A DNA stretch of 64,000 nucleotides from Bacteriovoracia bacterium (GTDB lineage Bacteria; Bdellovibrionota; Bacteriovoracia; Bacteriovoracales; Bacteriovoracaceae). The stretch covers positions 62,001 through 126,000 of the forward strand of contig JAUIIL010000003.1 of assembly GCA_030431635.1 (NCBI GenBank), read 5' to 3'. Below are positions 39,450-53,676 of this stretch, piece after piece. The notes beneath the pieces were generated by a model that saw nothing but the letters and a program-made list of their open reading frames with translations, did not search any database and was not told where the DNA came from. Position 1 is the stretch's first letter, and each line of letters starts with the position of its first letter. The position numbers were made by a program, and so were the translations under genes.

Positions 39450-40886
39450 GTGAATCTTCAAAATATGATTTCTGCTCAAGAGCTTATTGAGCGTAAAAAT
39501 AGCATAAAAAAAATTTTTTTCTATCGAATTTGCGGGACCGGTATGGGAGCTTGTGCTTGTCTTCTTAAAGAACAAGGATACGAGGTTGAAGGAGCCGATT
39601 TAAGTTTTGGCCCCCCCATGGATGCCTATTTAAGAAAATCAGGCATTGCTTTGTACGATTTGAAAGAAGTTGATTCTCAATTCTTGCAAAAATATGATCT
39701 TATTGTGGTAGGTAACTCTGTTCCAAGAGTTAGTGAACATGCACAACTCATCGAAGAGTGCTCTGTTGCTTTTACTTCTTTTCCCACAATTCTAGGGAGT
39801 TTTGTTTTAAACAAACAAAATGTCATTGGAGTTGCAGGAACCCATGGCAAAACAACCACTACTTATTTTTTAACCCAAATGCTAGAGAAACTTGGAAAAA
39901 AGCCAGGCTACCTTATTGGTGGAATTATGGATGGTCGCCCTCCTTCAAGGTTAGGGGATGGGAGTTACTTTGTCATTGAGTCAGATGAATATGACAGTGC
40001 TTACTTTCAAAAATATTCCAAGTTTAGACAATATGAAATTGATCACCTGATTTTAACTTCTCTGGAATTTGATCACGCTGATATTTTCAATGATATTAGC
40101 GATATTGAGAATGAATTCATTGAGGGGATAAAAACTATTAACTCGACCTTTATTTTCAATAATGACTACCCTTCTTGTTTAAAACTTCACGATCTATTTA
40201 AATCAAAAGGGGTTTGGTTTTTATATGGAGAGACTTCTCCTATCGGTCCAGTAGATATGAAGTCAACCAATACAGGAAGTACATTTGGTCTTAATCTCGA
40301 TGGAAATATAACTATTTTTGAAACAAATATTATAGGCAAGCATAATATTTTAAACCTAACAGCTTGTATTCTTTTTTGTTTAAATGAAGGTTTTTCAGTC
40401 GATGAAATCAAAAAATCATTGAAGGAACTCAAGCTTGTTAAAAGAAGACAAGAACTCCGAGGAAAGTATAGAGGTGTTAATGTTATAGATGATTTTGCTC
40501 ACCATCCCCGTGCTGTCTCTCTTACTATTGAGGCCATAAAGCAAACTTATGAAAATAAAATAGTTGTTGTTTTTGATCCTGTTTCTGCTACAGCAAGGAG
40601 TAACCTTTTTCAGAATGAGTTTCTTGAGAGTTTATCTGGAGCGAACAAAGTAATTACCTGTGAGCCTCAAATAAAAACAACGGCTCAAAATAGAGAAAAC
40701 TTAGATACTCTTTTTATTGTTAATGAACTCAATAAGAAAGGAATAGAATCTGTTAATGTTTCAAGTTTAGAGCAGTTAAGAGAAAAAATAGATAGCTTTA
40801 TTGACGAAGAGTCGACTTTATTAATCTTGAGTAATCGTAATGCTTTAGGGTTGTGGCAATCAGCTTTCATCGATGAAATACATTAA
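39450..40886 (+). CDS. mpl: UDP-N-acetylmuramate:L-Ala-gamma-D-Glu-meso-DAP ligase
   Basis: 478 aa, GTG start with AAAGGA 6 bases upstream. Mur ligase family: N-terminal ICGTGMGACACLLKEQGYEVEG-like Rossmann segment (about 28-50, CGTGMGACACLL), P-loop GVAGTHGKTTTT (about 128-139), ESDEYDSAYF and the later FAHHPRAV motif, which is the Mpl/MurC signature. Mpl attaches recycled murein tripeptide to UDP-MurNAc; in a predator this would let peptides from prey or own wall re-enter synthesis. Its end overlaps the next gene by 14 bases. Confidence 0.92.
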   Translation: MNLQNMISAQELIERKNSIKKIFFYRICGTGMGACACLLKEQGYEVEGADLSFGPPMDAYLRKSGIALYDLKEVDSQFLQKYDLIVVGNSVPRVSEHAQLIEECSVAFTSFPTILGSFVLNKQNVIGVAGTHGKTTTTYFLTQMLEKLGKKPGYLIGGIMDGRPPSRLGDGSYFVIESDEYDSAYFQKYSKFRQYEIDHLILTSLEFDHADIFNDISDIENEFIEGIKTINSTFIFNNDYPSCLKLHDLFKSKGVWFLYGETSPIGPVDMKSTNTGSTFGLNLDGNITIFETNIIGKHNILNLTACILFCLNEGFSVDEIKKSLKELKLVKRRQELRGKYRGVNVIDDFAHHPRAVSLTIEAIKQTYENKIVVVFDPVSATARSNLFQNEFLESLSGANKVITCEPQIKTTAQNRENLDTLFIVNELNKKGIESVNVSSLEQLREKIDSFIDEESTLLILSNRNALGLWQSAFIDEIH

Positions 40887-42573
40887 TACGACTTTATTTC
40901 TGATTTTTTTCAACGCCTATAGTTCTTTGGGAACTGTATTTAAGCATTTGGATATAAAAAAAACTCAACAAGAGTATCAAAAGCTTCACCACGACTTTTT
41001 TAAGAAAGCTTGTCAGAATGGAGCCGATCATCGGTATCAAAAACTGCTTAAAGTCTACCGAGGAAGTGGGTACTACCTTCCATCCAATAACAGTGATATC
41101 GATATAAAAGTTATCAAAAAAAACTTACCTCTTATTAAAGAGAAGATGTCGTGGCAAAAAAAACAATTAGAAGGAATACGAAAGAGTAAGTTTCCTAAAT
41201 TTGAAAAGATTTCTCAAAAATTGAAAAGTAATGTAGATGCTTTACTTGAAATGAAAAAAGAATATCAACTGGCCCTGAGTTCTTCTGAAAGACAAAATTA
41301 TTTATTAAAATCAAGAACATTGTTGCGAGATCTTAAAACAGAGTTTGATATCTTTTTAAATAAAATTCCTTTTTTACTTAGTTTTGGTTATCCCGTTGAT
41401 CATTTAGAAAATAGAAAAAGCTTTGATAAGTACAAGTCATTGGGGAAAAAGTATAAACACAAGGCCAATGATATTTTTTTTCAAAGAAAAATTTATGAAG
41501 ATGGAGCTCAAGATCCAAACCATTCTCGATCGGATGGTTTTTTAAGATCAACGATTGATACAGTTTTTTTAGAAATGAAAACTCAAAAAGATTTTATTTC
41601 TGAAAACCTTCGTTACGATCTGGAATATATTTTGAAATCTATTAAATATGTTTTAGGAAGAGGGAGAACCATCCAAATAAAACGACAAAGAGAGTGGTTA
41701 GCAAGAACACAAAAAGCTTATCAGTACTATGAAAATTTGATTAAGGACTCGAAGGAAAAATCTGATGAAAGCGCAAAATTAGGCTTAACAAAGACACAAT
41801 TACTCATGAAGAAAAAAGCAAAATCTACTTATGAATTAAAAGATTTTGTTTTAGAAAAACAAGCCTTCACTTATGATTATTGGAGACAAAAATCGGAGTT
41901 AATGAAAGCTATTTTTGTTATTGAAACCATTCTTTTTAATGAAGTGGGTGATGTTGATGGTCCTGAGGCCCTTGAGAGAGATGATGTTGCTCAAGTTGTG
42001 ATAAACAGAAAAGGAGAAAAGTTTTACCGAACGATTCAAAGAAATGAAGCCCTCTATCATTATTTAAATAAAAAATTATCTGATAAAGAAATTCAACAAG
42101 AGCACTGGTTAAATGTTCTTTTTAAAACTGCCGAATTCTCTTTTACTTTTTACTATATCCCTGGAGTTTCTCATATCTTTTGTCCAGATATGTCCAGAAG
42201 AGGAAAAAAACTAAGACAGAAGAATATAGAGATAGCTATTAAGCGCCTTATGAAGCCCAGGGAAGAATTTAAGGCCATCCGTTATTTTTCAAGAGCTTCA
42301 ATGAGAGGCCGAATTGATATGACTGAAATTTGGAGCAAGCATAAGGCAATCCCTGAAAGAGCAGGAAAAAAAATTGGTTACCAGGGTCATTGGATTAAAA
42401 AATACCAAAGAAAGAAATATACTTATCTTTACAGCTTTATTGATCCTAAGAATAGGCAGTATGAGGTTTTAAAATTTGATGAAAAATATCTTGTTCTTAG
42501 AAAAGAAAAAAAAGGGCCTGTGTTTTATCAATACAGAGATCCTCATCTTTTTACTTATTTTGTTAAAAACTGA
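40873..42573 (+). CDS. Secreted helical protein with possible SleB-like hydrolase segment
   Basis: 566 aa, signal peptide at 1-20 (LFLIFFNAYSSLG). The first 330 residues are Lys/Glu-rich helices, likely coiled coils. Residues about 355-400 read ETILFNEVGDVDGPEALERD then VAQVVINRKGEKFYRTIQ, which resembles the E-x-G-E...VA-x-VV-x-NR pattern of SleB/cell-wall hydrolase 2 proteins, and FTFYYIPGVSHIFCPD could be the matching later strand. The call is by eye. A basic C-terminal domain (about 480-566) follows. The operon partner mpl suggests the wall. Confidence 0.55.
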   Translation: MKYINTTLFLIFFNAYSSLGTVFKHLDIKKTQQEYQKLHHDFFKKACQNGADHRYQKLLKVYRGSGYYLPSNNSDIDIKVIKKNLPLIKEKMSWQKKQLEGIRKSKFPKFEKISQKLKSNVDALLEMKKEYQLALSSSERQNYLLKSRTLLRDLKTEFDIFLNKIPFLLSFGYPVDHLENRKSFDKYKSLGKKYKHKANDIFFQRKIYEDGAQDPNHSRSDGFLRSTIDTVFLEMKTQKDFISENLRYDLEYILKSIKYVLGRGRTIQIKRQREWLARTQKAYQYYENLIKDSKEKSDESAKLGLTKTQLLMKKKAKSTYELKDFVLEKQAFTYDYWRQKSELMKAIFVIETILFNEVGDVDGPEALERDDVAQVVINRKGEKFYRTIQRNEALYHYLNKKLSDKEIQQEHWLNVLFKTAEFSFTFYYIPGVSHIFCPDMSRRGKKLRQKNIEIAIKRLMKPREEFKAIRYFSRASMRGRIDMTEIWSKHKAIPERAGKKIGYQGHWIKKYQRKKYTYLYSFIDPKNRQYEVLKFDEKYLVLRKEKKGPVFYQYRDPHLFTYFVKN

Positions 42574-44242: not shown

Positions 44243-45781
44243 ATGGATGATCTAAAATTCCTGCAAAGTTCATTTAGTGAGACACAATCAGGTTCAAAAT
44301 CTGAAATTCCTTTTTTAGCGAATTGTCCAAAAGTTATTATTGTTGAAGATGACAGAATCTTGGGTATTTCAATAAAAAAATTTCTTTCTAAAAAGCTTGA
44401 ATCAGAAGTCTTGTTATTTACAAGGGCTTCTGATTGCTTAGAAGTGCTCTCTTCAAGTGATATTAATGAGCCTTTTTGTCTTGTGACAGATATTTCTCTA
44501 GAGCAAGGCTCAGACGGACTCTTATTATTAGATATTTTAAAAGAAAAAAACTATCGATTTGTTTCTATTGCGATGACTGGATTTGCTAGTATTGAAACTG
44601 CAATTTCCGCAACCAAAAAAGGTGTTTTTCATTACCTAACCAAACCTTTTGAGTTAGAAGACTTGTATAAGGTTATTATTGATGGTTTAGACAAGAAGCT
44701 TGGGTTTAAAAATGAACTGACCCAGGTTCAAATAAAAAACGTCGCCCAAGAAAACATTCAAAACAGTATTGTTGTTGATAAGCTTAAATTAGAGCCTCCC
44801 CGAGAAGAGGACATGTTTTGTGGAATGATAGGTCGTTCAAGAATCATGAGAGAAGTTTTTGATAGAATTGAAAAAGTCTCTCAGTCCGATTCAACGATAC
44901 TTATCTCTGGAGCATCTGGAACAGGGAAAGAACTTGTTGCCAACGCTGTTCATATCCTTTCAACAAGAAATCGCAAAACAAGAGTCTCTGTTAACTGTGG
45001 GGCCATCCCTGGAGAGCTATTAGAGAGCGAGTTGTTCGGTCATATGAAAGGCTCTTTTACTGGAGCAATTTCCGATCGAAAGGGAAGATTTGAGCTGGCC
45101 AACCATGGGACTATTTTTTTAGATGAAATAGGTGATATGCCTCTTATTTTGCAAGTGAAGCTCCTAAGAGTCATACAAAGCCGTCAAATTGAGCCAGTTG
45201 GTGGATCTCTTCCTATTAATGTCAACGTTCGCATTATAGCAGCGACACACAGGGATCTTGAGCAAGCAGTTAATGAAGGAAGATTTAGAGAAGACTTATT
45301 TTATAGACTTAATGTTATTCCAATTAAAATACCAGCTCTAAAAGAGAGAAGAGAAGATATCCCGCTTCTTATTTCTTATTTCTTAGAAAAATTTGTCAGT
45401 GCCGATAAAAGAAATGAAATAGAGTTGTCTGAAGAAGCCCTTGAGTTACTCTTATCCTATGATTGGCCAGGAAATGTACGAGAGCTTGAAAACGTTATTG
45501 AAAGGCTAGTTATCCTAAGAGGGGGAAATAGAATTCTTCCAGAAGATTTGCCTGCTAAAATTTACAGACATAATCCCCTGGCCTCATCACTTTATAAACA
45601 TATCTTTGAATTACCTGATGAGGGAGTTGATTTGAAAAAAGTCATATCTGATATAGAAGATTCTCTTATTATGCAGGCCCTTGGAAGAACTAAAGGGAAT
45701 AAAAATCAAGCCTCAAAGCTTCTTCAACTTAATAGAACAACTCTTATCGAGAAAATTAAGAAAAAAGATCTAACTGTTTAA
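44243..45781 (+). CDS. Sigma-54-dependent response regulator (NtrC/FlgR type)
   Basis: 512 aa. An N-terminal receiver (about 28-150) has the acidic pair E35-D36, phospho-acceptor D83 (VTDIS), T112 and K134. The AAA+ domain has Walker A GASGTGKE (about 223-230), the sigma-54 contact loop GSFTGA (270-275, GAFTGA family), Walker B IFLDEIGD and the arginine-finger stretch GRFREDLFYRL. A Fis-type helix-turn-helix (about 475-508) ends it. It would activate sigma-54 promoters when phosphorylated. The flagellar run starting at 48.7 kb on the same strand makes a flagellar role likely, but a partner kinase is not in the window. Confidence 0.92.
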   Translation: MDDLKFLQSSFSETQSGSKSEIPFLANCPKVIIVEDDRILGISIKKFLSKKLESEVLLFTRASDCLEVLSSSDINEPFCLVTDISLEQGSDGLLLLDILKEKNYRFVSIAMTGFASIETAISATKKGVFHYLTKPFELEDLYKVIIDGLDKKLGFKNELTQVQIKNVAQENIQNSIVVDKLKLEPPREEDMFCGMIGRSRIMREVFDRIEKVSQSDSTILISGASGTGKELVANAVHILSTRNRKTRVSVNCGAIPGELLESELFGHMKGSFTGAISDRKGRFELANHGTIFLDEIGDMPLILQVKLLRVIQSRQIEPVGGSLPINVNVRIIAATHRDLEQAVNEGRFREDLFYRLNVIPIKIPALKERREDIPLLISYFLEKFVSADKRNEIELSEEALELLLSYDWPGNVRELENVIERLVILRGGNRILPEDLPAKIYRHNPLASSLYKHIFELPDEGVDLKKVISDIEDSLIMQALGRTKGNKNQASKLLQLNRTTLIEKIKKKDLTV

Positions 45782-46009
45782 GCGACCCTGCACTATATAG
45801 GCAGAAATTAACTGACTAAGTTTGGTTGGATATTCAATAAGTTATTGGAATATAAAAGTGTCAAACAGGTGACTGGAAAAAAAATGCCTACCAGTAAAAA
45901 ATTCCTTTTTTCTGGCCCAGATATCTGTACAATAGAAAGAGGAGTTGGGTTTATCAGGAAGATGAATCACCCTTTTTATGATTTATTAGAGACAGGAAGT
46001 TTCAAAATC

Positions 46010-48715
46010 ATGCAGCATCACTTGTTCAAAATTTTGACGATGATCTTTGTGTTGCTAACACTTTGTTCCTCACGTGTTAGTGCTCAAACGATTTATCAAG
46101 AAAGTTTTTCCACTCACCATCGATGGAATATTAAGATCCCAAGAGAACAAGTTCTTGTTAAAAAAGATGATAACGAAATTAAGATTCAAACTTTAAATAT
46201 TGAGCTATTTAATAAGTTGGCAGATGACTTAAGTAAAGTCAGTTTAGATAAAGGTTATTTCTCTGACCTAAAGTTCAATCGAGAGCAATACCCTCAAGAA
46301 CCAGCGACGGTCTCCTTTATTCTTAGTAATCCTAACATTGAAATGTTTAGTTTTTATCAAGACAAAGATAAAAAATACATTTTAGATTTCTGGAAGAATG
46401 AAGAAGTTTCATTTGATGAACCTATTAAGAAGAAAGAAGTTCAAAAACCTTTGTTGGCCAAGATTACCAAGCCAGTGAAGGCCAATAAAAAAGATTCTAA
46501 AAAACAAGAGAAAAAAATTAATTATAATAAGGAGCTTTCTGAAAATAAAAATCCTCTTTCTAGTATTATTGCAACCAAGAAAGTTGAGAGTAAGGGATAT
46601 CGTGATTTTAGATACGGGGCTTCCTTTATATGGGACTATAGACCTCTTCGACCTACACTAGAGCAAGATGTGAACTTAAAAAGCAAAATTCCGGCTTCTC
46701 TTTATAAAATTAAGGATAGAGAATACGATAAAGATGAGAAAGAAGCTCATATGCAGCTAACCATTAATCTTTTCAGAAAAGAGAAGTGGGGACTTCTTGC
46801 AAAATCAGTGAAATTATATGAAACAAAGTTCGGCAAAGATAGTAATCATGAGCTTAACGAATTTTTAAAAGCTAACTCTTTATTAAAGAAAAATCTTAAA
46901 GAGCAAAATAAAGGTGTTGCTGCTTCTGCCTATAACATTCTAAATAACTTACTCGAAACAAGTACAAATTATGAACTCAAAAAAGCAATCGGTCGATATC
47001 TAATTCAGGCTTCTTTAGATAGAGATAATTATATAGAATCTCTATCTTTTGCTAGAAAACTCTTTTTTGAATCAAAAGAAGAGTTTGATAAGGAGATGAC
47101 TATCTATAGCTCTCGAGTTATTTTGCATTGTTTGGCCAGTCTCAAGCAAAATGATAAAATTAATGAATTTCTTGAGGATAAATATATTAAAAAAATTCTT
47201 CCTCAACAAATAGGACATTCTTATAGCTCTTTTGCTTTGTTAGAAGTGGGTGACACCGAAAAGGTCATAGAGCTTTATGAAAGTAGAAAGAAAGGTTTGG
47301 TAGGAATTATTGAACCTGCAATTTTGTTTAATACAGCAGAAGCTTATTTTAGAAATTCACAGTATGAAAAATCAATTACTCTTTTTGATAGCTTTGTTAA
47401 AGAATATTCTTACCTAAATAAAGCTCCTCATGCAAGATTAAGAATTGCCTTGAGTTATGAGGTTTTAGAAAAACCGATAAAAAAAGTAGTCAAGCTCTAT
47501 AAAGATGCGTTGGATAGGTCTCCGGACGATCAAATTCGTTATGAAGCAAAATTACGTTATTTAGGAGTAGAGCTTCTTCGAAAACAAGAGCTTGCAAAAA
47601 CAGATTTAGAAAAAGAAATATTCTTTGAAATGTCTCCGGGTGAAAGAAAGTCTGTATCTAAAGAACTGAAAAAACTACTTTGGCTTGTTAGATTAAGAAC
47701 TTATATTAACAAAAAACAATACAGTAAGGGGTTAACGTATTTAAGCAGTATACCTCTTAATTCATTGAAGCCTCTTAGACGCCAAGTTTTTCAAGCTGAT
47801 GGAGCTGAAATCATCTATGGTCTTATTAATGAAGCTCATGCAAAAGAGAATTTTTCAAAGGCAATAAAACTTTGGAAAACTTATCATGATATTTACGACA
47901 ACAAAGTGGCCATTAATCCTCATATCAATTTCCTTGTGGCCGATTCTTATTTAAAATTGGGACTTGTAAAAAGTTTTGATGAAACACTAGAAAACTTTCA
48001 AGGTCTTAAATCTTATGCAACAAGAGTTTTTCCAGCTTGGATTAAAAGAAATAAAGATATCCAAATTACAAATATGCTAAAGGAACTTATTTTAATTAGA
48101 CACCTAAATAAAAAACAATGGGACTTGGCCAGTACAATGTTAGAGAAGTTAAATAATGAGGATAAAAAAGAAATTAACTATTCTTACTACCGGGGGATTG
48201 TTGATTTTGAACAAAATAAGCATAAACAAGCAGCGGACTCATTTGAAAATATGTTAATAGACCCCAATGCTAAAAACCAATTGGATATGGCCCAGTTAGC
48301 AAACTTAATAACTAAGTATGTGGAGTCTTTGCATAAAACATCTCAAACAGAAAGATTGGTAAAAACAGTTAAAGCGATCATTAAAGATTTAGATAGAGAA
48401 GAAGTGAAATTAGAATCATTAAAGAACGCTAAGAAAAGGATTCACTATCTTCTCATTGAAAATCTTTACGCTTCTAAACAAGAAAATTATCCTCAGTTAG
48501 AAGAGAATGCTCAAAGCTTTTTAAATAATTATAAAAAGTCCGAGTATGCAGATAGAGTGAAGTATATTTATGGGCTTGCAATGATAAAGAATTTAAAAGT
48601 CGAACAAGGAAGTGAGGTTTTAAATTCAATGATTTCAGATAAGGATGTACCTGGTTATTTAAAAGAAATGGCCAAGACGGAACTATCTGCAATCAAACTT
48701 GGAGTTGGAATTTAA
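46010..48715 (+). CDS. Large secreted TPR-repeat protein
   Basis: 901 aa from ATG 46010, which gives a clean signal peptide (IFVLLTLCSSRVSA, cut before QT). The frame is open from 45845, and ATG 45962 is an alternative. A 130-residue N-terminal beta-rich region (IYQESFSTHHRWNIKIP...) resembles an AMIN-like domain and is followed by a Lys-rich linker. Beyond about residue 210 the sequence is helical TPR-like repeats to the end, including YEKSITLFDSFVKEYSYLNKAPHARL. It likely sits in the periplasm as a binding scaffold. It stands between the two sigma-54 activator genes and just before the flagellar operon, so a flagellar assembly role is inferred. Confidence 0.7.
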   Translation: MQHHLFKILTMIFVLLTLCSSRVSAQTIYQESFSTHHRWNIKIPREQVLVKKDDNEIKIQTLNIELFNKLADDLSKVSLDKGYFSDLKFNREQYPQEPATVSFILSNPNIEMFSFYQDKDKKYILDFWKNEEVSFDEPIKKKEVQKPLLAKITKPVKANKKDSKKQEKKINYNKELSENKNPLSSIIATKKVESKGYRDFRYGASFIWDYRPLRPTLEQDVNLKSKIPASLYKIKDREYDKDEKEAHMQLTINLFRKEKWGLLAKSVKLYETKFGKDSNHELNEFLKANSLLKKNLKEQNKGVAASAYNILNNLLETSTNYELKKAIGRYLIQASLDRDNYIESLSFARKLFFESKEEFDKEMTIYSSRVILHCLASLKQNDKINEFLEDKYIKKILPQQIGHSYSSFALLEVGDTEKVIELYESRKKGLVGIIEPAILFNTAEAYFRNSQYEKSITLFDSFVKEYSYLNKAPHARLRIALSYEVLEKPIKKVVKLYKDALDRSPDDQIRYEAKLRYLGVELLRKQELAKTDLEKEIFFEMSPGERKSVSKELKKLLWLVRLRTYINKKQYSKGLTYLSSIPLNSLKPLRRQVFQADGAEIIYGLINEAHAKENFSKAIKLWKTYHDIYDNKVAINPHINFLVADSYLKLGLVKSFDETLENFQGLKSYATRVFPAWIKRNKDIQITNMLKELILIRHLNKKQWDLASTMLEKLNNEDKKEINYSYYRGIVDFEQNKHKQAADSFENMLIDPNAKNQLDMAQLANLITKYVESLHKTSQTERLVKTVKAIIKDLDREEVKLESLKNAKKRIHYLLIENLYASKQENYPQLEENAQSFLNNYKKSEYADRVKYIYGLAMIKNLKVEQGSEVLNSMISDKDVPGYLKEMAKTELSAIKLGVGI

Positions 48716-48738
48716 ATACATAAAAGACAGGAGGTCGA

Positions 48739-49680
48739 ATGTTTGCATCAGAATTAGAGCTAGTAGGGTCTAGTCAAAAGTTTCAGAAATCAGTTGATTT
48801 TGCCGAAAATGTAGCCGTTACCAAATCATCAGCCCTTATTGTTGGTGAATCAGGGACAGGAAAGAAAACATTTTGTCGGTATATTCACTCACTATCGGCT
48901 AGAAAGAATGGTGAGTTTTATGTGGTTGATTGTTCTCAAGATGCAAAAAGAGTTGAACAAGAGATCCTTGGTTACAGAGATGTTGAAACAGGTCGTTTTA
49001 ATAAAGGTGTCCTTGAAAAAGCGAATCATGGTACGGTTGTTTTTTCAAATATAGATGGTTTAGATGAGAACTTTCAAAAAAGACTTTTTACAATTATTCA
49101 AGAATTAACTGATTATGATATTGATGTAAGAATTTTAGCAACGACTTCAAAAAATCTTTCAAAATATGTTGGTGCGGGACGTTTTTATAGAGCGCTTTAT
49201 ACACACTTCTCTGGAACGCAAATCAATCTTTCTCCTTTGAGAGAGAGACCTGAAGACATTCAAAACCTAGCTCAGTATTTTGTTAATAAATTTTGTAATG
49301 AAAGAAATGAAAGTAGTTATCTCATTACAGATGAAGCTAGAGAGAAGATTTCTTCATTTTATTGGACTCACAATATAGCTGAACTGAAATCTGTGATTGA
49401 AAGCGCAATTGAGAATGCAGAGAATGGAAAAATTGATTTAAATGCTATTGAACTTGGAGAAAAGAAAGCAGAAAGTTTTATTGTCGATGATGATGATGAT
49501 GGGATTCGGTTGATGTCTTTAAAAGATGCCGAAAAATTACTTATTAAAAAGGCTCTTATTCATACTTCCGAGAATAGAACTCAAGCAGCAAAAATTCTTG
49601 GCGTATCAATCAGAACTTTAAGAAACAAAATAAACGAATATAGACATGATGGACATAGTTACTTTGTTAACTTGAGATAA
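48739..49680 (+). CDS. Degenerate sigma-54 activator-like AAA+ protein
   Basis: 313 aa with no receiver domain. Walker A is intact, GESGTGKK (36-43), and the Fis-type HTH at the C-terminus is intact (ENRTQAAKILGVSIRTLRNKI). Against the activator at 44243, the sigma-54 contact loop GAFTGA is absent (GYRDVETGRFNKG instead), Walker B reads VVFSNIDG so both acidic residues are lost (S103, N104), and the arginine-finger stretch reads GRFYRALYTHF. ATP hydrolysis and open-complex remodelling are thus unlikely. AGGAGG lies 4 bases upstream. Its stop is 2 bases from flgB, so it heads the flagellar run. It also has a run of five Asp codons near residue 250. Confidence 0.85.
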   Translation: MFASELELVGSSQKFQKSVDFAENVAVTKSSALIVGESGTGKKTFCRYIHSLSARKNGEFYVVDCSQDAKRVEQEILGYRDVETGRFNKGVLEKANHGTVVFSNIDGLDENFQKRLFTIIQELTDYDIDVRILATTSKNLSKYVGAGRFYRALYTHFSGTQINLSPLRERPEDIQNLAQYFVNKFCNERNESSYLITDEAREKISSFYWTHNIAELKSVIESAIENAENGKIDLNAIELGEKKAESFIVDDDDDGIRLMSLKDAEKLLIKKALIHTSENRTQAAKILGVSIRTLRNKINEYRHDGHSYFVNLR

Positions 49681-49682
49681 GT

Positions 49683-50090
49683 ATGGATATTAATAACAAA
49701 ACATTACAGGCATTGGCACAATCTTTGAACTTCAGACAAATGAAGCAAGAGCTTATATCAAGCAACGTGGCCAATGCACAAACTCCTGGTTATAAGGCTA
49801 AACGTCTTGATTTTGAAGAAGCTCTAGCAAGGGCCTTAAATATTGATGGAAAACAAGGAATGAATACGACTCATGAAAAACATTTTAATGTTGGTAATGG
49901 GGGATTTTCAAACTTAGAGCCAGAAGTTTATACAGACCCTAATGGAATTGTTAGTGAAAATGGAAATACTGTTGATGTGGAACAAGAGATGGCCAAGTTG
50001 GCAGAAAACAAAATTCTCTACGATGCTTTAGTCCAGTTGGTGAATAAGAAGATGGGATTAATGAAATATGCGGTATCAGCAGAGAAATAA
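49683..50090 (+). CDS. flgB: Flagellar proximal rod protein FlgB
   Basis: 135 aa, matching FlgB. Contains the rod-protein N-terminal motif ISSNVANAQTPGYKAKRLDFEE-like (SNVANAQTPGYKA at about 28-40) and the C-terminal MAKLAENKILYDALVQLVNKK helix used for axial packing. It forms the first rod segment above the MS-ring. It begins 2 bases after the preceding stop and is followed by flgC after 10 bases. Confidence 0.95.
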   Translation: MDINNKTLQALAQSLNFRQMKQELISSNVANAQTPGYKAKRLDFEEALARALNIDGKQGMNTTHEKHFNVGNGGFSNLEPEVYTDPNGIVSENGNTVDVEQEMAKLAENKILYDALVQLVNKKMGLMKYAVSAEK

Positions 50091-50100
50091 GAGGTATTAG

Positions 50101-50538
50101 ATGGATCTATTAACAAGTTTAAGAATTAGCTCTTCAGGTCTTGCTGCCCAGAGGAAGCGAATGGAAACGATATCTTCTAATATTGCGAATGCTCAGACGA
50201 CAAGAACAGCAGAAGGTGGGCCTTACCGTCCGAAAGAAGTTGTTTTTGGAGCAGAGCCTGCGAGAGAGAGTTTTTCTGAAATTCTTGAGGGAGAGTTAGA
50301 TGCTAATGGACAAGAAGTTCATGTAACTGAAGTTATTTCAACTAATAAACCTCCTATTTTAAAGTATGAACCCAATCACGCGGATGCAGATGAGAATGGG
50401 TATGTGGCCTATCCCAATATTAACGTCATGTCCGAGATGGCCAATATGATGAATGCACAAAGAAGTTATGAAGCTAACGTTTCTGCAATAAATACAGCAA
50501 AGAGTATGGCCATTAAAGCTTTAGAGATAGGTAGGTAA
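50101..50538 (+). CDS. flgC: Flagellar proximal rod protein FlgC
   Basis: 145 aa, slightly longer than the usual 134. N-terminal motif RISSSGLAAQRKRMETISSNIANAQ (motif positions about 7-31, key SSNIANAQTT) and C-terminal MSEMANMMNAQRSYEANVSAI mark a rod protein of the FlgC type. GAGGT precedes the ATG. Two bases separate its stop from fliE. Confidence 0.95.
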   Translation: MDLLTSLRISSSGLAAQRKRMETISSNIANAQTTRTAEGGPYRPKEVVFGAEPARESFSEILEGELDANGQEVHVTEVISTNKPPILKYEPNHADADENGYVAYPNINVMSEMANMMNAQRSYEANVSAINTAKSMAIKALEIGR

Positions 50539-50540
50539 CC

Positions 50541-50903
50541 ATGATTAAAACAGAAGCAGGCATTAATCAAGTATTGAAAAACTATGATTCGAAGGGATGG
50601 AATCGAAAAACAGATTTCAAATTGAATACTGAATTTAATAATTTCCCTTCACCGGCATCTCCTGAGGCGAATCCTGCCAATACAAAATCTTTTGGAGATT
50701 TTCTCTCAGAATCCATCGGGAAAGTGAATGAACTCCAAAAGAACGCAGATGTGGCCATGCAGAAGCTAGCAAGCGGAGAAAGTAAGAACTTACATGAGAC
50801 AATGATTGCTGTCGAGCAAGCTGATATTGCTTTTAAAGCAATGAACCAGATTCGATTGAAAGTCATTGATGCTTATAAAGAAATAATGAGAATGCAAATA
50901 TAA
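50541..50903 (+). CDS. fliE: Flagellar hook-basal body protein FliE
   Basis: 120 aa. The conserved part is the C-terminal half: FGDFLSESIGKVNELQKNAD, the MQKLASGESKNLHETMIAVEQAD helix (key residues G-x5-LH-x2-MIAVEQA) and the RLKVIDAYKEIMRMQI end. FliE joins the MS-ring to the rod and is exported early. The first 40 residues are variable. Confidence 0.93.
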   Translation: MIKTEAGINQVLKNYDSKGWNRKTDFKLNTEFNNFPSPASPEANPANTKSFGDFLSESIGKVNELQKNADVAMQKLASGESKNLHETMIAVEQADIAFKAMNQIRLKVIDAYKEIMRMQI

Positions 50904-50939
50904 TTTAGTTGATCAGTAAAGAAAGCTCAGGAGGGCGTT

Positions 50940-52628
50940 TTGGAAAACTTTTTTAAACAGATCGTAACCAATTTTGGAGAATTCTTCAGTTCTCTTGACG
51001 TTGTCAGACGTGTTGGTGTTATTGCCCTTGCCCTTATTACCGTAACAATAATTGTTGCAATCATTACTTGGGCCGCAAAAACTCAATATAAAGTTCTTTA
51101 TACTGATTTAACGAAAGAAGACTCGGCCCTCATCGCACAAATGCTAGAAGAGGCCAAAATCAGTTATCAAATAGCTGATGAAGGTAAAACTATTAAAGTT
51201 CCGGAAGATAAAACAGAAGTTTGGAGATTGGAAATTGCGAAGAAAGGAGTTAATTTTTCTTCAACTGTTGGATATGAAGTTTTTGATAACCAAAGTTTTG
51301 GAACAACAAGTTTTGTCCAAAAAATTAACAAACAAAGAGCCCTTGAAGGTGAACTTATTAAAACAATTAAACATATTAGAGGTGTTGAAAGAGCGAGAGT
51401 TCACTTGTCTATCCCTGAATCCTCTCCTTTTGTTTCAGAACAAAAACCTCCCGGTGCATCAGTCGTTCTTGAACTCTCACCAGGAGTTGTTCCAACGTCA
51501 GGTGAAATAAGAGGGATTCAGCAATTGGTTTCAGCAGCTGTTGAGAGAATGAGAACTGAAGATGTTATTATTATCAATTCGAGAGGAAAGAAGTTATCTG
51601 AAAATCTTGGTGATAGCATGACTGCTGAAACGGCCAATCGTATGGCCCTTGAATCAAAACTAAACGCTCAGTATGAAAAACAAGTTGAAGAGATTCTCTC
51701 AAGAGTTGTAGGTGAAGGAAAAGTTATCGCTAAAGTTTCTGCTAAACTTGATTTTACGGAGAGAATTGAAACTCAGACAACTTATGATAATGAAAATAAG
51801 GCGATTATTTCTGAGGTTGCCAATAAACAAAAACTTCTAGGAACAAGACCTTCTCCTCAAGGAATCCCAGGGGCAAGAAGTAATCTACCAGGAGAGAAAC
51901 CTCAACCAGGAATTCCTGAAACAAAAAATGATGTTGATAAAAGTTTAACAACTAGAAACTATGGTGTACCTTCAAAAGTAACAAAATCAAAGAAACCAAC
52001 AGCAGAACTCAAAAATTTAAGTGTTGCTGTTATGCTTGATGGAAAAAGAGCTCCAGTTCTTGATGAAAATGGAGTTCAAAAAGTAAGTGAACAAGGAATT
52101 CCTTTAACTAAGTATGAACCTTGGTCAAAAGCAGAGATTGAAAACTTCAGACAAGTGGTGGCTTCTGCTTTAGGAATAAGTTTGACTAGGGGAGATCAAT
52201 TAACGATTAAGAACATGGAGTTTGCAGAAGAAGATCTTGCTGCTGTTGAAGCAATTCTTGAGAGACGTGAGAATCGTGAAATCATTAAAAACTTAACAAA
52301 ATACCTCATGATAGGTCTTATCATTTCTTTATTCTTCCTTGTGGTTGTAAGACCATTTATCGCATGGGTAACAGAGAACACTGTTGAGACGATCGATGAT
52401 TATCTTCCTAAAACAATCGAGGAGTTGGAGAAAATCCAAGCAGGCCAAAAGCTACCAGGACTCGAGGATGCGCTACCTACGATTGAAGAGAAAATCAATC
52501 CAGAAAAGATTGAAGGGAATTTACTTAGAGAAAAGATTGTTAACCTTGTGGAGCAAAACCCTGCAAAAGCAGCTCATATTTTGCATGAAATGATTCATTC
52601 AGTTGATGAAAATAAACAAATAGCTTAA
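50940..52628 (+). CDS. fliF: Flagellar MS-ring protein FliF
   Basis: 562 aa, TTG start behind AGGAGG with a 6-base gap. Membrane helices at about 25-47 and 455-475 flank the large periplasmic region, with ring-building motifs LYTDLTKEDSALIAQMLEEA near 60 and SSPFVSEQKPPGASV-type region near 165-180. A Pro/Gly-rich stretch at about 300-330 is as expected. The C-terminal cytoplasmic tail ends in a helix for binding FliG. Followed by fliG after 10 bases. Confidence 0.95.
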   Translation: MENFFKQIVTNFGEFFSSLDVVRRVGVIALALITVTIIVAIITWAAKTQYKVLYTDLTKEDSALIAQMLEEAKISYQIADEGKTIKVPEDKTEVWRLEIAKKGVNFSSTVGYEVFDNQSFGTTSFVQKINKQRALEGELIKTIKHIRGVERARVHLSIPESSPFVSEQKPPGASVVLELSPGVVPTSGEIRGIQQLVSAAVERMRTEDVIIINSRGKKLSENLGDSMTAETANRMALESKLNAQYEKQVEEILSRVVGEGKVIAKVSAKLDFTERIETQTTYDNENKAIISEVANKQKLLGTRPSPQGIPGARSNLPGEKPQPGIPETKNDVDKSLTTRNYGVPSKVTKSKKPTAELKNLSVAVMLDGKRAPVLDENGVQKVSEQGIPLTKYEPWSKAEIENFRQVVASALGISLTRGDQLTIKNMEFAEEDLAAVEAILERRENREIIKNLTKYLMIGLIISLFFLVVVRPFIAWVTENTVETIDDYLPKTIEELEKIQAGQKLPGLEDALPTIEEKINPEKIEGNLLREKIVNLVEQNPAKAAHILHEMIHSVDENKQIA

Positions 52629-52638
52629 GGAGAAAAGC

Positions 52639-53676
52639 GTGGCAGCAGAAGAAACAAACGTCGACCAAGATACAGAGTATGCCCTCCTATCAGGCCAGGA
52701 TAAAGCCGCTATTCTTTTGAGTTCTCTTGGTTCAAAAACATCAAAGTTAGTTTTTGATCATTTGAAAGATAACGATGTCAAAAGAATGATTAATGCAATG
52801 TCGACAGTTTCAAAATCTCCGATTTGGATGGTAAAAAAAGTTCTTGAAGAATTTTATGGTCTTATTAATGAAGAGAACAGTTTACTTTTTTCAGATAACA
52901 AAGGAAAAGATTTTATTATTCAAACCTTAGGTGAGGATCGTGCAAAGCAACTATTGGGACAAATCGTTGAAGTTGGTAACGCAAATACTTTAGAGTCTCT
53001 TGAGCTAGTTGATACGAGAACATTATCAAACTTTTTAATTAATGAACATCCTCAAACAATTGCTTTGATTGTGGCACATTTAAATGCTGAAAGAAAAGTT
53101 GATGTTTTAAGAAAATTACCAGAAGGACTTCAAGCTGAGGTTGTTTTAAGAGTGGCCAACCTTGATTTCGTTTCTCCTGAATTAATTGCACAACTTGATG
53201 ATGTTCTTAAAACAGAGCTCAGTACGCTTGGCTCTATTGATACTCAACAACTCGGAGGGGTTGAGCCAATTGCTGACATGCTCAACATGATGGATAAAAA
53301 CTCTGAGAAAAATGTTATGGCCAGAGTTGAGGAAAAAGATCCTGAACTTGCGGAAGAAATCAGAAAACTCATGTTTGTTTTCGAAGACCTTATCTTTGTT
53401 GATGATAAGGGGATTCAAGAAATGCTTAAGATTGTGGATAACCAAAAACTGGTTATCGCACTTAAAACAGCCCCAGAGGATATCAAAGCTAAACTATTTA
53501 AAAATATGTCTAACAGAGCTGCCGGATTACTTGCTGAAGACTTAGATGCGTTGGGGCCAACAAAACTATCTGATGTAGAGAAAGCACAACAAGAAATCGT
53601 TCAAATGGTTAAAGATCTTGAAGCAAAAGGTAAGGCCATTATTGCCAGAGGTGGTGAAGGTGATGCGCTTGTTTAA
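52639..53676 (+). CDS. fliG: Flagellar motor switch protein FliG
   Basis: 345 aa, GTG start with AAGGAG upstream. The N domain (SGQDKAAILLSSLGS), the middle domain with EHPQTIALIVAHL near 130, and the C-terminal torque domain with the charged helix EIRKLMFVFEDLIFVDD are all present. It forms the rotor ring between FliF and the stators and sets torque and switching. Followed by fliH after 12 bases. Confidence 0.96.
   Translation: MAAEETNVDQDTEYALLSGQDKAAILLSSLGSKTSKLVFDHLKDNDVKRMINAMSTVSKSPIWMVKKVLEEFYGLINEENSLLFSDNKGKDFIIQTLGEDRAKQLLGQIVEVGNANTLESLELVDTRTLSNFLINEHPQTIALIVAHLNAERKVDVLRKLPEGLQAEVVLRVANLDFVSPELIAQLDDVLKTELSTLGSIDTQQLGGVEPIADMLNMMDKNSEKNVMARVEEKDPELAEEIRKLMFVFEDLIFVDDKGIQEMLKIVDNQKLVIALKTAPEDIKAKLFKNMSNRAAGLLAEDLDALGPTKLSDVEKAQQEIVQMVKDLEAKGKAIIARGGEGDALV

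Follow-up and report, generated by a model that had tools for sequence, protein, structure and literature searches.

The gene at 48739-49680 of the window (the whole 64,000-nucleotide stretch of DNA analysed) encodes a 313-residue homologue of the sigma-54 activators that appears to have lost sigma-54 activation while retaining DNA binding, a conclusion we regard as well supported. We propose, giving the idea about an even chance, that this protein is a sigma-54-independent DNA-binding autoregulator, probably acting at the promoter of its own operon and more readily as an activator than as a repressor.

Domain content and lost motifs

Pfam matches in the protein are to Sigma54_activat (PF00158, 2.6e-25), AAA_lid_14 and HTH_8, with no receiver domain and no partner kinase gene adjoining. 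FlrC was among the best PDB matches for its AAA+ fold in a fold search, the one purpose for which we used a modest AlphaFold model (pLDDT 70.5, from an alignment of three sequences). The features of the gene are as follows.

48739-49680 (+): predicted ATPase-dead, receiver-less FlrC/FleR-type sigma-54-activator homologue, 313 aa
48844-48864 (+): Walker A motif GESGTGK (residues 36-42), in which the glycines and the lysine do not vary among 35 orthologues
48976-48999 (+): former GAFTGA-loop region, here RDVETGRF; lost in all orthologues
49045-49050 (+): Walker B acid positions, here S103-N104
49186-49206 (+): arginine-finger region, residues 150-156, YRALYTH; canonical arginines gone, R151 invariant
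49510-49641 (+): Fis-type helix-turn-helix (HTH), residues 258-301; mean column conservation 97%

We compared these motifs with those of the intact regulator at 44243 and then across all 35 Bacteriovoracaceae sequences. The sequence-only reading had held that Walker A and the Fis-type helix are kept and that GAFTGA, the Walker B acids and the arginine fingers are lost, and both comparisons bear this out; the same losses recur in every one of the 35, and elsewhere in the phylum most families are intact. The Walker A residues G36, G39, G41 and K42 are present in 35/35 orthologues and FTGA in 0/35. The Walker B Asp-Glu pair has become a variable residue followed by Asn (33/35) or His (2/35), the second acid never being Glu, and arginine occurs at positions 150 and 156 in none of the 35. 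The second sigma-54 loop, expected some 8 residues ahead of sensor I, is missing throughout, with the HTH left intact. As the losses are a family-wide character they are not due to chance, and together they strongly indicate that the protein is ATPase-dead. An acid is nevertheless invariant at residue 106, two past the Walker B pair (Asp in 31, Glu in 4), and R151, one residue past the first arginine-finger position, is found in 35/35; given these two residues just off the canonical positions, we infer the absence of ATP hydrolysis, and residual ATPase activity is possible. The label 'sigma-54 dependent regulator' is misleading as an annotation for these motor-less genes.

Conservation in Bacteriovoracaceae

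A search of 59 genomes yielded one clear orthologue in each of 34 other Bacteriovoracaceae genera (51-71% identity, E < 1e-93; paralogues at most 38%). Among the 35 sequences, column conservation is far from uniform, averaging 97% in the HTH, 51% in the lid and ∼68-85% in parts of the ATPase core. Eighty positions are invariant, and K138, N139 and R151 are newly so. The reading frame is open in every orthologue found and the gene is conserved in at least 37 species. Given the 97% conservation of the HTH and the 80 invariant positions, the gene is not decaying. Two further enhancer-binding proteins (EBPs) without GAFTGA, of 514 and 663 aa (L010 and L012), are encoded in the same genome.

The operon and its promoter

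Gene order in Bacteriovoracaceae is, with few exceptions, metK - FleQ-like regulator - TPR - 313-aa gene - flgB - flgC - fliE - fliF - fliG, and the order TPR-activator-flgB-flgC-fliE-fliF-fliG is found across the phylum. Two positional claims made from the sequence alone need correcting here. The gene had been said to head the operon and to start 2 bases before flgB, but it is the second gene, preceded by the promoter and by the TPR gene (ATG at 46010), and it is its end that lies 2 bases from flgB (49680 and 49683).

44243-45781 (+): FleQ/FlrA-like intact sigma-54 activator with receiver domain
45857-45940 (+): composite sigma-70-like operon promoter, conserved (model R1, E 1.5e-14, unique in the genome)
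45860-45873 (+): FleQ-type box GTCAAACAGGTGAC
45875-45888 (+): AT-cored site 1 GGAAAAAAAATGCC, centred at ∼-58 from an inferred +1
45893-45906 (+): AT-cored site 2 AGTAAAAAATTCCT, family consensus AGnAAAATTTTCCT, centred at ∼-40 from the inferred +1
45928-45933 (+): -10 element TACAAT; TANAAT across Bacteriovoracaceae
46010-48715 (+): TPR-repeat protein, first gene of the operon; the ORF as extended mechanically begins at 45845
49683-50090 (+): flgB
50101-53676 (+): flgC, fliE, fliF and fliG; order conserved, names assigned from similarity and synteny

The composite promoter is common to 28 Bacteriovoracaceae genera and reads TGTCA...TGAC, GGAAAAANTTNCC, AGnAAAATTTTCCT, a stretch of ∼20 nt and GTANAAT. 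In these genera there is no indel between site 2 and the -10, and the composite has no recognisable -35. The +1 was placed ∼7 nt past the -10, from which the centres of sites 1 and 2 follow; a site centred near -40 is typical of class-II activators. No consistent sigma-54 promoter lies before the TPR gene or the 313-aa gene in any Bacteriovoracaceae genome, a TGGCACAATCTTTGAA match at 49714 being rejected because it sits within the flgB coding sequence. Sigma-54 itself has not been lost, as RpoN is present in 23/23 genomes tested.

The promoter model is essentially specific to this operon in the other genomes searched. We also considered a wider regulon, and set it aside since the secondary matches in the same genome are far weaker (E of at least 0.03, the next-best match being at 0.03 versus 1.5e-14) and two in genomes G031 and G155 have non-homologous surroundings. 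A second conserved target of the 313-aa protein was not found by the promoter model, which is odd for so frozen an HTH. One flagella-less genome carries a second tandem match to sites 1 and 2 (L084:12953-12982, minus strand), upstream of the homologue of window 40873-42573; it was not seen in the sister species.

The GTCA-N6-TGAC box was rejected as the leading candidate for the site of the 313-aa protein. It matches the box described for FleQ (PMC10723142), and a FleQ-type HTH is found in the regulator next door, its best match among solved structures being Pseudomonas aeruginosa FleQ. Motif finding with no prior input in 56 sigma-54 TPR promoters from outside the family recovered the palindrome ccGTCAAanntTTGACgg ∼85 nt upstream (score 217 versus ∼28 for shuffled sequences), which corresponds to the described FleQ box (PMC10723142). 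The presence of this box at sigma-54 promoters outside the family indicates an ancestral origin, the box having survived replacement of the sigma-54 part of the promoter.

The FleQ-like regulator itself lacks GAFTGA in six genera (L067, L068, L077, L079, L080 and L083), and in two of these it has shrunk to an HTH-only ORF of 126-141 aa. Three of these six genera were searched for a flgF/flgG sigma-54 promoter, and the region covered contained none. Such a promoter is present in several genera with an intact regulator, and in some other genera it may lie outside the region covered. A conserved TTTTTGCCTATGTAG element precedes the sigma-54 promoter of the flgF/flgG operon in several genera (L139:6757-6773, L227-L246).

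GGA hairpins in the leaders

Three CsrA-like elements lie in the leaders of the TPR gene and the 313-aa gene.

45948-45968 (+): GGA-loop hairpin in the TPR leader, CsrA-like
45989-46003 (+): CsrA-like hairpin GAGAC-AGGAA-GUUUC, immediately ahead of the TPR start
48726-48736 (+): GACAGGAGGTC, Shine-Dalgarno element with GAC/GUC stem arms and a CsrA-like GGA loop; invariant

At the start codon of the 313-aa gene, GACAGGAGGUC is found in 35/35 orthologues (one with an extra A), and the next flanking pair around it is complementary in 26/35, compared with 16.5 expected. An upstream GGA-loop hairpin accompanies this gene in 17/35 (0.9 expected); in our window this upstream hairpin is weak and both TPR hairpins are present. 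The TPR leaders carry a GGA-loop hairpin in 27 of 29 cases, against 3.5 expected and 6% in coding controls, and outside Bacteriovoracaceae it recurs, for example, in 13/17 leaders of family f8 and 7/12 of f6. The possibility that GACAGGAGGTC is a general ribosome site was rejected, since a single exact copy exists in the 3.3-Mb genome. The csrA gene is present in nearly all genomes examined. The hairpins ahead of the TPR gene, in the window and in TPR leaders of f1, f6 and f8, suggest an ancient CsrA control of the basal-body operon and make CsrA a little-examined candidate controller of flagellar genes in predatory bacteria.

The same locus across the phylum

We took the flgB region from ∼73 genomes of other families. 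An intact activator stands before flgB in families f3, f8 (apart from genome G119, where the loop is altered), f9, f11, f14, f15, f18, f19, f21 and f22; these relatives share with the 313-aa protein the place directly before flgB and a closely similar HTH. In f9 the activator is a complete response regulator and a kinase-like gene adjoins it, as in FlrBC/FleSR. At the TPR start, most families with an intact activator carry a good sigma-54 promoter. Bdellovibrionaceae (f6) have lost the contact loop and kept the sigma-54 promoter, copies like that of B. bacteriovorus HD100 retaining an E-D pair and one arginine finger. In f12 the contact loop is gone, together with the Walker B Asp and the sigma-54 promoter. 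Point changes within the GAFTGA motif occur in f20 and f23, and the gene is absent from f7. Apart from f6, promoter state and activator state thus mostly go hand in hand. The variants GAFVGA, DAFAGA and GAFAGT, seen in L143 (f23), L176 (f8, G119) and L180 (f20), resemble early stages of this loss.

In a tree of FlgB, FlgC, FliF and FliG from 24 loci in eight families, f6 stands beside the intact f11, f12 beside the intact f8, and f1 outside f8 and f12 (each with 100% support), positions that imply at least three independent losses of the contact loop unless function was regained. The HTH is kept in every lineage with such a loss. One locus thus presents a graded series, from kinase plus full activator through receiver-less active activator, loop-less activator and motor-less protein to loss of the gene, and with this series the way in which an ATP-driven activator came apart from sigma-54 in evolution can be tested directly, laboratory Bdellovibrio included.

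Retention in genomes without flagella

FlgB and FlhA are missing from genome G027 (91% complete) and from the three genomes of genus g32 (94-99%), all four of which keep the 313-aa orthologue at 51-59% identity. The Shine-Dalgarno element is the same in all four, with one extra A in G027. The g32 genomes retain promoter sites 1 and 2 and the -10 and have lost the FleQ box, which ties sites 1 and 2, and not the FleQ box, to the 313-aa protein; the promoter of G027 was matched weakly. This retention suggests that the protein has a flagellum-independent role and was recast as another type of gene switch. A fast-evolving FliF-like ORF follows the gene in flagella-less genomes (L084:4642-6135, L225:4032-5324 and L226:915-2411, minus strand; L086:6596-8191, plus strand), and the TPR gene of g32 is reduced to 205-294 aa.

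Proposed function and alternative explanations

The gene descends from a FlrC/FleR-type class-III flagellar activator that, in the ancestor of Bacteriovoracaceae, lost all the parts with which sigma-54 polymerase is remodelled (contact loops, Walker B and arginine fingers) and kept the ATP-binding residues, through which ATP may still play a role, the AAA+ scaffold and a near-frozen HTH. Its most likely target is the pair of AT-cored palindromes at 45875-45906, suggested by their co-retention with the gene and by their position just upstream of the -10 of what would be a sigma-70-type promoter. These sites could instead serve the FleQ-like regulator or some other factor, or work as an UP element. 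Since the spacing between site 2, near -40, and the -10 does not vary, an arrangement known from class-II activators, positive autoregulation is our first guess and repression the second. Synthesis would probably be capped by CsrA, acting on the operon-leader hairpins and over the gene's own Shine-Dalgarno element. More tentatively, and with less than even confidence, we suggest that a flagellar activator was repeatedly converted to a motor-less autoregulator as the operon passed from sigma-54 to sigma-70, and that the protein gained a flagellum-independent function and so outlived the flagellum.

Other accounts of the protein have to be weighed against this autoregulator. Autorepression, in which site 2 overlaps the -35 region and binding occludes polymerase, agrees with the position of that site and with the repressing activity of GAFTGA-less relatives such as TyrR (PMC3162934), but we consider it unlikely because the missing -35 suggests that the promoter needs an activator and the spacing from site 2 to the -10 is strictly fixed. 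The sequence-only reading had offered a brake or scaffold for flagellar sigma-54 transcription, through mixed rings or through occupancy of enhancers; the partner in such rings would be the FleQ-like 44243 regulator. A ring containing subunits with Walker A and the AAA+ fold and without arginine fingers would indeed stall, and sigma-54 promoters do exist elsewhere in the Bacteriovoracaceae flagellar regulon, such as TTGGCACTAATATTGCT at flgF/flgG. At its own operon, however, such a brake is unlikely, because the family has a conserved sigma-70-like promoter there in place of any consistent sigma-54 promoter. The protein also persists in the four species without FlgB and FlhA and where the FleQ-like partner is GAFTGA-less or reduced to its HTH, and the HTHs of the two proteins are of different types. 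The brake as a whole is rather unlikely. A brake on sigma-54 promoters elsewhere in the flagellar regulon, such as that of flgF/flgG, may still operate, as may mixed rings in certain genera.

If sites 1 and 2 were instead those of another factor or UP elements, the protein might act elsewhere, for instance with FliF or on a flagellum-independent target. This is quite improbable: TTTTGCC elements upstream of the sigma-54 promoters of other families (15/56 versus 0.3 expected) and the FliF-like remnant beside the gene in flagella-less genomes speak for it, but the remnant diverges fast and the gene is retained together with sites 1 and 2 in three of those genomes. That the gene is a decaying, functionless relic is hardly credible, for all the catalytic residues it has lost, in view of the open frames, the invariant positions old and new, the invariant Shine-Dalgarno element and conservation in at least 37 species.

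Comparison with known systems

GAFTGA-less bacterial EBPs are already known; as far as our searches show, what is new is that such conversion recurred at a single flagellar locus, that the promoter was replaced and that the protein survived without flagella. In the papers searched, no earlier account of this gene from Bdellovibrionota turned up. For the predicted translational control, the closest parallel is the CsrA-controlled leader of Escherichia coli glgC, with a GGA hairpin upstream and a second GGA over the Shine-Dalgarno sequence (PMC7652899). The putative CsrA leader here has the same arrangement but, unlike glgC, places its GGA hairpins on a TPR gene and a degenerate activator, and CsrA binding is predicted from sequence.

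The protein resembles FlrC/FleR (FlgR) in its AAA+ fold, its Fis-type HTH and its place next to flgB, and differs in having no receiver, kinase, GAFTGA, Walker B acids, arginine fingers or operon sigma-54 promoter. In FlrBC/FleSR the activator requires that the FliF-FliG ring and the export apparatus be assembled (PMC7064773). Here fliF, fliG and the 313-aa gene lie in one operon, a parallel that is suggestive only. TyrR, DhaR, HupR and YplP are likewise GAFTGA-defective EBP homologues (PMC3162934), but have different regulons and sensor domains. Also comparable are the GAFTGA-less proteins reported to act at sigma-70 promoters (PMC10274813), VpsR of Vibrio cholerae and NtrC of Rhodobacter capsulatus and Caulobacter, which have also lost the contact loop and kept the DNA-binding domain. 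These keep their receiver, whereas the 313-aa protein is receiver-less, is without Walker B and arginine fingers and belongs to a flagellar operon, the promoter of which is sigma-70-like; regulation of the VpsR type is predicted there.
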